From Branchiostoma floridae (taxonomy: Eukaryota; Chordata; Leptocardii; Amphioxiformes; Branchiostomatidae), in NCBI RefSeq assembly GCF_000003815.2, contig NC_049984.1:28022089-28086088 (forward strand): a stretch of DNA of 64,000 nt, in the 5' to 3' direction. The translations under genes and the position numbers were made by a program. The notes under the pieces are model-generated. The model had not been told where the DNA came from and made no database searches. It was given only the letters and a program-made list of their open reading frames with translations. Shown piece after piece: positions 55,290 through 64,000 of the stretch. Each line of letters starts with the position of its first letter. The stretch's first letter is position 1.

Positions 55290-55418
55290 ATGACGGACTT
55301 ACCGCTGTCTGAGATGTTCAGGATGTGGTCTCCGGTGTCCTCTGCTCTCTCGTCTAAGGTTGCCAATCCCGTGCAGGAAGGCTTTACCGGATCCGTGCCG
55401 TCAACGCCATGTAAATAA
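55290..55418 (+). CDS. Small upstream ORF, 42 codons
   Basis: It reads MTDLPLSEMFRMWSPVSSAL and ends at TAA, 33 bp before the gag ATG at 55451. It could be an uORF of the element or a decayed N-terminus of gag. Confidence 0.3.
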   Translation: MTDLPLSEMFRMWSPVSSALSSKVANPVQEGFTGSVPSTPCK

Positions 55419-56111
55419 TTTGCTTAGTCGAGTCAATACGGTGTACCAAAATGCCCGTGGACGATAATGACAAACAGTACGTCGTTCTGGCGACCGACAG
55501 GAAGCTACCACAGTTCGCCGGCCTCCCCTCCAAACCGGGAGACTTGTCGGTGGATCAATTCGAGTTAGAATGTAAACGCTCTTTCAAGGTATGGGGGACC
55601 CCTATCGAACAACAGGGCTTCCTAGTAGGCCGTGCGTGCGTCGTTGAGGCTAAGACCCACATCCAACTCCTTAGCGACACAGATAAGGATGATGCGACCA
55701 TTGTATTTACGCATCTGACATTCTATCAGAATGTCCTTGATCTGAAGGAGGCGCATGCCGACAAGGCCCCGTTTTCGGCACTAATCCAGGCCTTCTATGG
55801 CAGGCAGCAATTGCCCGGTGAGTCAATCAGGCAGTACGCCTTGGCATTGAACACAATCCTGCGTCGCGCTAGCGACAAGGACGAGAAGGATAACAAGCAG
55901 CTGCCTCACCCCGACCGCACGTTGCGCGATAAGTTCGTAGCGGGGCTCAGTGACGCGGGGCTCAGACGGGACCTACTAAAGCTCATCAGGGGGAAGGGGG
56001 ACGCCAAGTTCAAAGATGTCCGCGAGGAGGCGCTCCACCTCAGCGGGGAGTACGACAGAGAGGCCATGTCGGAACCCACCCTGCGAGTGGCCATGCAGTC
56101 GGCAGACATAT

Positions 56112-56572
56112 GCAGAGCAGTGACCACCAATCATGTCTTCCCTATCCTTATAATGCATTTAATGGCAAATAGAAGCTGTCAAAAGTCACCTACCTGACGT
56201 TTCGTTCTCGAAAAACTAACATTGAGAGGGTAGCCCGGCTTCTAAAATGTCCATTCTCAACTTTTCGGAACTTTCTGACCACTGGAACACATGTGATTTG
56301 CATCCAAACGCAACTCGGTGACCTTTGACCCCATCTGGCACTACAATGACAGCTACATAACAAACTTCTTTCTAGTGTCCAGGCACCCAAAACAGGCTTG
56401 AAAGTCTGGTTTTTTCGACATAATAAAAAACCTACAACCCTTACCTGTAGAATACAGCTCCAAGATGCCAACATTTCCAAAGAAAAACACATCTTCTGAT
56501 ACTTTTAAAAATCAATCCTGAGGGGACTCACCGGGGACCTTCTGCGCAGCCGTCAATTAGGGTCATTGCCCT
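56112..56572 (+). repeat. 0.46 kb unit, copy 1 (MITE-like)
   Basis: Starts GCAGAGCAGTGACCACC and ends GGGTCATTGCCCT. Its two ends are imperfect inverted repeats of each other, so a single unit already looks like a miniature inverted-repeat element. Nearly identical to 57445-57905. Confidence 0.75.
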
Positions 56573-57904
56573 TGTAGGGGCCCGAACTTGAGAATTGACA
56601 AGTTTCATTCATTTCGCATGATGCGGGTAAGAGTTTTCAAACATTATCCCAAGTTTCAAAGCTTTCTGACCAAGAATGCTCCCAGGGGAATAGATCTCAT
56701 GGCATGTGTCAGAGGACTTTCCTCAGGGCTTTGGCAGTGGTTTGAGGCATTTGATAGGCTCCATAGCATTGACCAAAAAGTGACACAAACTGAAGAGAAA
56801 GTTAAAAGCTGATCCTTCTAGAATAAGGAAAGTATTCTCCCACCATTTACACACCTAAAGTTGTATTGAAAAGCTGCCAGGTTAGACTTTGAAGCATTTT
56901 ATGAGAGTGCATATTACATTATCAATAAAAGGTACAGAAAGTAAGAAATCAGGCCCAAAACCAGTAAAATGGCAGAATTTCTCAATAAATTTCAGTCAGT
57001 TGAGTCAGGTAAAGCCTTTCTTTTGCCCATATAACCAATTTTTGGGAACATATTGGCCCCCAAGGATATATAAGCCCCAAAGGACACACCTACCCCCCCC
57101 TCATTCTATGCACTCTCATCATCTGCTCCAAAGTGTGGTCTAACAGCATTAAGATACAAATTTTGGTGTCTAAACTGATGGAGAGTAGTCCCCTTATGAC
57201 AGGGTGAGCAGATTTTACCATTTTCCCCTGTTTGTGCCACTTTTTGCTAAACAGTATGAAGTCTAACCAAAGCCACAAACCTTACCACATCCCTCCTGAC
57301 ACCTGTGCTCCCTGGGGACCAATCCTTGGAGTAGGGTCTCCGTGAAGTCTTTGAAACTTGTGACAATGCTTGACAACCCTTCCCGCATCACTTGAAGTGT
57401 CTTAACACCTGCTAATTTTGAACTTGAATACCCTGCCGAACATGGCAGAGCAGTGACCACCAATCATGTCTTCCCTATCCTTATAATGCATTTAATGGCA
57501 AATAGAAGCTGTCAAAAGTCACCTACCTGACGTTTCGTTCTCGAAAAACTAACATTGAGAGGGTAGCCCGGCTTCTAAAATGTCCATTCTCAACTTTTCG
57601 GAACTTTCTGACCACTGGAACACATGTGATTTGCATCCAAACGCAACTCGGTGACCTTTGACCCCATCTGGCACTACAATTACAGCTACATAACAAACTT
57701 CTTTCTAGTGTCCAGGCACCCAAAACAGGCTTGAAAGTCTGGTTTTTTCGACATAATAAAAAACCTACAACCCTTACCTGTAGAATACAGCTCCAAGATG
57801 CCAACATTTCCAAAGAAAAACACATCTTCTGATACTTTTAAAAATCAATCCTGAGGGGACTCACCGGGGACCTTCTGCGCAGCCGTCAATTAGGGTCATT
57901 GCCC
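56115..57904. mobile_element. Composite insertion: two 0.46 kb units around a palindrome
   Basis: Bounded by TGCA on both sides (56111-56114 and 57905-57908). The outer ends are short inverted repeats (GAGCAGTGACC at the left; GGTCATTGCCC, i.e. GGGCAATGACC, at the right). Inside lie two direct copies of one unit (56112-56572 and 57445-57905, same length; I saw one substitution) separated by about 0.87 kb that is an imperfect palindrome. No protein is encoded; the repeated minus ORFs at 56190-56492 and 57523-57825 are the same shadow twice. Confidence 0.75.
56590..57430. repeat. Imperfect palindrome (arms of about 0.35 kb)
   Basis: The left arm reads gatgcgggtaagagttttca, caagtttcaaag, caaaaagtgacacaaactg and ttatgagagtgcata. 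The reverse complement of the right arm reads gatgcgggaagggttgtcaa, caagtttcaaag, caaaaagtggcacaaacag and gatgagagtgcata, in the same order. The centre is at about 57010. It can form a long hairpin; it looks like a foldback element. Confidence 0.7.
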
Positions 57905-57905
57905 T
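57445..57905 (+). repeat. 0.46 kb unit, copy 2 (MITE-like)
   Basis: Same length and orientation as copy 1; the one difference I noticed is caattacagc in place of caatgacagc. It carries the outer right terminus of the composite insertion. Confidence 0.75.
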
Positions 57906-58143
57906 GCATGGCCAGGCCCCTAAAGAGGATCCCGGACCTGAGCGCCCACGTCGCTCGATTGACGGCAGAGCTTGCTACTTTGAAGGGGCAATTCAACCAG
58001 CAGCGCCCCCACCCCCCACCCCTTTCAGCCACGCGGCCTCCCGACGGACAGATATTCTCCTAACGGTAGGCCGTACTGCCGTCGGTGCGGCGTACTCGGC
58101 CACATTGCCCGCAGGTGCTTTGTACAGCCGGCACAGGCTAACG

Positions 58144-58262
58144 GGTCTGGGCGAAGGTACTAGCCTGTGCAGCCCTCATCCCACAGCTTTGGAACATTTT
58201 GCCGAGAACACAACGATTATGAAGAAGAGTCTACCTGAGGAATAAACTATGCGCAACGTGCA
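58144..58262 (+). repeat. Dispersed repeat, copy of 7447-7570
   Basis: Matches over gcagccctcatcccacagct, gccgagaacacaacg and tctacctgaggaat. It follows directly after the gag end. Confidence 0.55.
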
Positions 58263-63886: not shown

Positions 63887-64000
63887 GTGCAGAACTACTA
63901 CAATAATTTGATCATGATTTTGTTGTAGAATACTGTATGAAAGATGAACAAAGTGCCTAATCCAAGCTCTGAGGTTTCATCAAAACATCAAAAGTTAAAA
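63887..64000. other. Start of next intron; window ends
   Basis: No further exon is seen. Confidence 0.4.

Follow-up and report, generated by a model that had tools for sequence, protein, structure and literature searches.

The window analyzed here, a stretch of 64,000 nucleotides from Branchiostoma floridae, represents the final 64 kb of contig C6 in the 513-Mb assembly. Its position 64000 is the contig end; the window displays no runs of three TTAGGG and contains 2,505 N. A block of 1,790 bp lies between two copies of TGCA within a decayed Gypsy-like gag, and consists of two direct 457-bp units around an 876-bp internal region. We refer to the unit as U or LTDR, and to the internal region as INT. 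The features of the locus are as follows:

55415–56110, plus strand: left part of the decayed Gypsy-like gag (stop-to-stop frame), host site
56111–56114: left copy of the target site duplication, TGCA, present once at the same site in two gag paralogues
56115–56571, plus strand: left LTDR (unit U), 457 bp, running 5'-GAG...CCC-3'; solo copies share these ends
56115–56125, plus strand: left inverted end of the left LTDR, GAGCAGTGACC
56561–56571, minus strand: right inverted end of the left LTDR, GGGCAATGACC on this strand
56572–57447, plus strand: internal region (INT, also labelled C), 876 bp, imperfect palindrome without a Pfam match
56619–56913, plus strand: left arm of the palindrome, 68% over 297 columns
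57107–57390, minus strand: right arm of the palindrome, 68% over 297 columns
57448–57904, plus strand: right LTDR, 457 bp, differing from the left at a single base (T57681 vs G56348)
57905–57908: right copy of the target site duplication, TGCA, again single in the gag paralogues
57905–58163, plus strand: continuation of the gag on the right, host site, where a zinc knuckle occupies 58062–58163 in another frame

The initial annotation had described two direct copies of 461 bp with imperfect inverted ends and a single difference, flanking a palindrome of 0.87 kb, and this description holds. The direct match extends beyond the 457-bp units by three bases on the left and one on the right, giving 461 bp, and the sole mismatch between the units is G56348/T57681. 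The inverted ends of U, GAGCAGTGACC and GGGCAATGACC, match at 9 of 11 positions, a result equalled in 3 of 20,000 random draws. The arms of the INT palindrome, approximately 295 nt each, are 68% complementary; as single-stranded DNA the region has a predicted fold of −130 kcal/mol, compared with −92 ± 6.5 for 20 shuffles (z −5.9). The longest stop-to-stop frames of INT encode 83 and 85 amino acids and neither matches a Pfam family; by this measure the region lacks transposase and nuclease coding, a condition permitted in nonautonomous families. The longest frame of at least 80 amino acids inside U (104 amino acids, minus strand) likewise has no Pfam match.

The flanks of the block retain a gag zinc knuckle scoring 25.2 bits, which exceeds the Pfam cut-off, and a Retrotrans_gag match of 14.4 bits, which falls under its cut-off of 24.1. 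The left flank has only two matches elsewhere in the genome, on contigs C8 and C16, each 82% identical. Both of these gag paralogues run uninterrupted across the site with a single TGCA, and the window block is therefore one 1,790-bp insertion with a 4-bp target duplication, in agreement with the earlier placement of a 1.79-kb block in a gag between TGCA copies. Both paralogues match the window flank at 64 of 74 positions on the left, and at 65 and 66 of 84 positions on the right, and they differ from the window by indels at and just after the insertion site. The accompanying claim that excision of the block restores a continuous gag frame is weak evidence, given these indels and the position of the zinc knuckle in another frame.

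The block is not unique in the genome: the best 13 matches span nearly its whole length at 96–100% identity and are distributed over 10 contigs, one of them inside an array. Candidates were scored from the best 40 of 312 matches for the U query, of 105 for INT and of 353 for the LTDR of a second family (B, below), so that the sampled copies are the best-scoring rather than random ones, and older copies are under-represented. Among these best-scoring copies, 14 insertions of the window's family (A) have both outer LTDRs: eleven are plain U-INT-U (L001–L004, L006–L008, L010–L013), two are U-INT-INT-U (L016, L019), and one is a longer array, U-INT-U-INT...U, with a 733-N gap inside (L009). Thirteen of the 14 are bounded by perfect 4-bp target duplications (TGCA, TTGT, TGCA, TGTT, TGTA, TGTG, TACA, TCTA, TTAA, TGTA, TTCT and TGTA, and TGCA for L009); the exception, L004, is flanked by TGCA but shows an additional T on the right. 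By eye, the duplicated sequences lean to TNNA. Misassembly is an unlikely source of the direct repeats, with 13 other copies carrying two outer units in their own flanks.

Single units elsewhere begin and end at the same bases as those in the composites, and all 15 full-length solo LTDRs of family A among the best-scoring copies have perfect 4-bp duplications. U occurs in two length types, 457 bp and 448 bp, each found both as solos and in composites, and the borders of the inner region are constant in the complete copies. Loci in which one outer LTDR is missing, truncated or unbounded were left out as pairs (L005, L014, L015, L017, L018, L020–L022, L026–L028, L068, L069); beyond the 14 insertions, the family-A loci are truncated, cut by assembly gaps, or lie within long mixed arrays on C18 and C8. 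Two such arrays of U and INT, partly truncated and containing 100 N each, are L017 (C18:11114400-11124399), where both U length types stand side by side, and L018 (C8:21117000-21124400); here an 871-bp satellite-like repeat is spread together with a transposon. At L068 and L020 (C2:34303300-34308900), a repeat of approximately 2 kb with the ends AAGCCTATT...AATAGGCTT apparently interrupts the left LTDR of a single U-INT-U copy. We rejected a model in which composites are cut from homogenised long arrays: the outer U copies are of the same type within each of the 14 family-A composites, whereas neighbours in the C18 array differ.

Family B has an LTDR of 469 bp with other inverted ends, approximately 69% identical to U over aligned columns, around an INT that is 90–92% identical to that of family A. 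The inverted ends are changed on both sides between the families, the end bases being GA/CC and GG/CC. Of six B composites whose outer ends both lie in flanking DNA, five display 4-bp duplications (L024 AACA, L059 ACAA, L062 TTAA, L063 TGAT, L072 TTGA), while L073, with 971 N inside, has no matching duplication. The empty site of L024 is visible in the flank of another copy, L038; L025, L060, L061, L070 and L071 are open or truncated on at least one side. Among 12 presumed solo LTDRs of this family, seven carry perfect 4-bp duplications (seven of the ten that are readable), one has a duplication matching at 3 of 4 positions, two are ambiguous, and the last two abut INT and enter N, respectively. 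The loci L023, L025, L060, L061, L070, L071 and L074 (truncated or unbounded) and L073 (for its lack of a matching duplication) were left out as pairs. We also observe that the identity between the families, about 91% in INT and 69% in the LTDRs, shifts sharply at the LTDR/INT borders (L023, L024, L025 and L059–L063 against the window). This contrast could result from exchange of INT between the families or from constraint on the palindrome.

Multimers occur in both families. Arrays L024 and L009 are each bounded by one pair of duplications, showing that the outermost LTDR ends are the ones used. At INT-INT junctions, compared with INT plus INT, 5 bp are missing in family A and 4–5 bp in family B. 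We also rejected a model in which U was inserted into an INT satellite that already existed: the 4-mers on the two sides of the inner U differ (GGCA vs TTGT/TGTA in A; TGCA vs TGTC in B), and because these flanking 4-mers are unequal, a plain U insertion with duplication is not seen. Loss of U fits the INT-INT junctions better than its insertion into a satellite.

An element with this architecture was described in 2022. The text of Kojima & Bao (Mob DNA 13:24, PMC9587614) presents KolobokP as an animal DNA transposon of the structure LTDR-INT-LTDR, reported from three Branchiostoma species. According to the same text, its LTDRs of about 450 or 660 bp carry their own TIRs of up to 18 bp and 5'-RR...YY-3' ends; it occurs as solo LTDRs, (LTDR-INT)n-LTDR and LTDR-(INT)n-LTDR, all with duplications of approximately 4 bp (3–5 bp); INT-INT junctions contain micro-deletions, and nonautonomous families exist (PMC9587614). 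Its Table 3 gives, for two large clam families, 90 and 118 monomers and 24 and 30 multimers. The elements described here agree in their terminal direct repeats of approximately 450 bp (457/448 bp in A, 469 bp in B), in the short TIRs of each LTDR with RR...YY ends in both families, in duplications of about 4 bp round monomers, solos and multimers of A and B, and in occurring as solo LTDRs and multimers, with a few bases missing at the INT-INT junctions. They differ in their INT of 876 bp, which is non-coding and palindromic. INT also holds no coding remnant tying it to KolobokP. The lean of the duplications to TNNA counts against a KolobokP assignment, since that paper's text states no strong target preference (PMC9587614). 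Among the papers listed on composite transposition by MITEs, amphioxus MITEs, other superfamilies with 4-bp target duplications and satellite-bearing MITEs, none describes the element, and passages of PMC10294476 throw no light on it.

The initial annotation had interpreted the locus as composite transposition, in which two short elements mobilise the foreign palindromic DNA between them. This interpretation survives in part: the block moves as one, its layout is composite-like, and single units have the same ends, but two MITEs that happen to flank passenger DNA do not account for it. The palindrome is not a foreign cargo; INT is the non-coding internal region of the family itself, with the same borders in complete family-A copies. 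That U alone has TIRs and duplications would suit two independent MITEs that inserted on the two sides of unrelated palindromic DNA and came to mobilise it. The dispersed near-full copies with target duplications refute this as a single local event. We consider the independent-MITE reading very improbable in general, as the inner region and both junctions are constant in complete copies, the same inner region recurs in family B between LTDRs only about 69% alike, and the layout is the default of KolobokP in its published description (PMC9587614). KolobokP itself may nevertheless have had an ancient origin through two MITEs flanking unrelated DNA. The locus also departs from bacterial-type composites: U occurs solo but is non-coding and encodes no transposase.

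Coding relatives of KolobokP are present in the genome. The His-Me nuclease PF05551 has 33 matches at E≤0.01, of which 32 exceed the cut-off; 14 control genomes of unspecified kind have none. A tandem element on C10 with a period of 3,952 bp includes a 724-aa ORF for a Mutator-like (DDE-type) transposase (PF20700, E 3.6e-60) and, on the opposite strand, a 137-aa nuclease (PF05551, E 2.5e-13). Pfam places this transposase under Mutator rather than Kolobok, in a comparison set without a Kolobok model; we use the name KolobokP because of the nuclease neighbour and the published architecture. At this locus (L087, C10:11451300-11457300) the tandem element carries the open transposase ORF and a nuclease, and two of its units are 99.9% alike over the 2,051 bp compared; it is recently active or recently duplicated.

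We compared U and the B LTDR with ten 1-kb stretches beside 10 of the 33 nuclease matches. One of them, on C13, contains an LTDR that is 68% identical to positions 39–394 of U over 365 bp (E 8e-41) and 63–64% identical to the LTDR of B; its local score is 145, against 30 at most for 200 shuffles. Scores of the remaining nine stretches with U and B lie between 19 and 30. Adjoining the C13 LTDR are a nuclease 45% identical to that of the C10 element and a stretch 48.6% identical to the C-terminal part of the C10 transposase over 218 aa, the latter without a Pfam match of its own. The left half of the C13 element is hidden by 2,937 N. An autonomous copy with LTDRs closely resembling U was not found among these flanks: one of ten matched, at 68%, and the C10 element did not.

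The insertion of the whole block is established by the duplications and empty sites. From the LTDR architecture and the kinship of U with the C13 LTDR beside the nuclease and transposase, we conclude that the window block is very probably a nonautonomous KolobokP DNA transposon, LTDR-INT-LTDR, moved whole by a KolobokP transposase made elsewhere, its outer LTDRs becoming copies of one sequence. The assignment of the transposase, acting in trans, is based on sequence comparison. The enzyme would recognise the short inverted ends of the LTDRs, take the outermost left and outermost right ends, and insert everything between them through a staggered cut of 4 bp. Since both ends are present in every LTDR, mobility would extend from the solo LTDR to the single unit, the two-INT unit and longer arrays. 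Loss of the inner LTDR from INT-LTDR-INT together with 4–5 flanking bases would produce the INT-INT junctions. At or after transposition, the outer LTDRs would become copies of one sequence; the sharing itself is observed, and the route is a matter of interpretation.

The evidence for this sharing comes from private substitutions, defined as those absent from other aligned copies (58 LTDRs in family A). The family-A comparison leaves out alignment columns 1–20, and the last LTDR of L009 was compared without its first 18 bases. In 8 of the 14 loci, private substitutions are common to both outer LTDRs, amounting to nine sites; unshared differences number three, in three loci. Despite the polymorphic pool, 11 of the 14 outer pairs show no difference and three show one. 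We re-paired the copies at random by shuffling the right-hand copies within a length type. The five long-type pairs contain two differences, compared with a mean of 9.2 after re-pairing (328 of 20,000 shuffles were as low), and the nine short-type pairs contain one, compared with 22.8 (none of 20,000 as low). In family B, private sharing is observed in three of four insertions compared, with shared and unshared sites, respectively, of 2 and 0 in L059, 1 and 0 in L062, 1 and 7 in L063, and 0 and 4 in L072; the true pairing is the lowest of 24. L024 was left out of this count, as its 11 shared sites mark its sub-family. A Fisher test with loci grouped post hoc carries no weight here.

The multimers show the same pattern across a middle copy. 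In L009 the outer LTDRs are identical over the part read, including two private and two rare sites, while the middle LTDR differs by six changes; in L024 the outer LTDRs are identical and the middle one has one more change. Since private substitutions are shared even across a differing middle LTDR, the ends are either copied anew from a single template or undergo conversion once in place. The single difference between the units had earlier been taken to mean a recent event or gene-conversion step; outer units that are copied or converted together provide no such simple date. The element kind has been known since 2022, and the sharing of LTDR substitutions within insertions is the new part of the finding. 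Neither this sharing nor the far stronger conservation of INT relative to the LTDRs was found in PMC9587614, whose main text does not contain 'homogeni' and uses 'gene conversion' once, for homing endonucleases.

Identical ends are also produced by reverse transcription, and a small LTR retrotransposon (TRIM), with U as the LTR and solo U as a solo LTR, would present the same layout, solo forms, shared end mutations and 4-bp duplications. TRIM elements (PMC6934838) resemble our elements in their short terminal direct repeats and their solo and tandem forms, and differ in features that the window copy lacks—TG...CA ends, a primer site and a purine tract—and in that the LTDRs have inverted ends. 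The window copy ends in GAG...CCC, INT carries no TGG within its first 10 bases, whichever strand is read (the primer check being for TGG only), and a purine tract is missing upstream of the second U, where 7 and 6 of 12 bases are purines. Moreover, the inverted ends of U are changed on both sides between A and B, and the U homologue adjoins a KolobokP-type nuclease. We therefore rejected the LTR reading, on its ends, primer site, purine tract and KolobokP kinship, as highly unlikely.

Within the KolobokP interpretation, two leading routes for the likeness of the outer LTDRs are about equally likely. The first is replicative: a cointegrate-like insertion from a circle of LTDR and INT, in which both outer LTDRs copy one, as in the IS26 pseudo-compound transposons. 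We regard this route as quite possible, somewhat short of an even chance. The private sharing in both families and the closeness of outer pairs relative to shuffled ones, in long and short types alike, are consistent with it. Copying from a single template would explain the match of the outermost LTDRs across a different middle copy, as in L009 and L024, as well as insertions with only unshared differences; the seven unshared differences of L063 and four of L072 indicate that the pair is not constantly converted. Against it, no circle is seen, and the assembly of L009 (733 N) and L072 (100 N) may be wrong. A further observation concerns L019 (C17:16561200-16565900), where both INTs carry the private substitution 239C>G yet differ at four INT-type sites. 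Such a mosaic, with a shared private site amid differences, points to local conversion or exchange and disfavours single-template copying.

The second route has a chance close to even. Here the whole unit would be cut and pasted, and its LTDRs would be homogenised in place through gene conversion or unequal exchange in multimers, a process perhaps started by the nuclease. This extends to sequence identity the induced-unequal-crossover model put forward in the text of PMC9587614. It requires no new chemistry, and agrees with the presence of multimers in both families and with the mosaic-like INTs of L019. It is less compatible with L009 and L024, where the outermost pair is identical and the nearer middle copy is not, and with L063 and L072, which together retain 11 unshared private differences and one shared.

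A more specific form of the replicative route is copy-in by KolobokP from an LTDR-INT circle: each insertion would receive two fresh copies of one LTDR round the contents of the circle, and recombination between them would regenerate a solo LTDR and the circle. We offer this proposal tentatively and consider it rather unlikely as it stands. If true, KolobokP would be a eukaryotic DDE transposon with an IS26- or Tn3-like life cycle, and the persistence of paired ends would be explained even though each LTDR can leave alone. The likeness to IS26-type pseudo-compound transposons and translocatable units (PMC9587614 and, in part, general background) lies in two direct copies round a cargo, and in that a circle holding one copy could restore the form with two copies, whose ends would be identical. 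The systems differ in that the bacterial transposase sits in the flanking elements, while here the element is eukaryotic and no circle is shown.

These observations demonstrate that young nonautonomous KolobokP families are present in this genome. According to the text of PMC9587614, the discoverers left open how the paired architecture of KolobokP is kept up. Shared LTDR substitutions provide a sequence test for how the LTDRs stay paired and whether a circle is involved, so that this mechanistic question becomes testable on existing genomes. Should a single template supply both outer LTDRs, animal DNA transposons would include a class that behaves like a bacterial cointegrate system; if conversion is the cause, a homing-type nuclease may maintain the architecture of a transposon. 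The mobile arrays also disperse an 871-bp tandem repeat, which represents one route of satellite spread.
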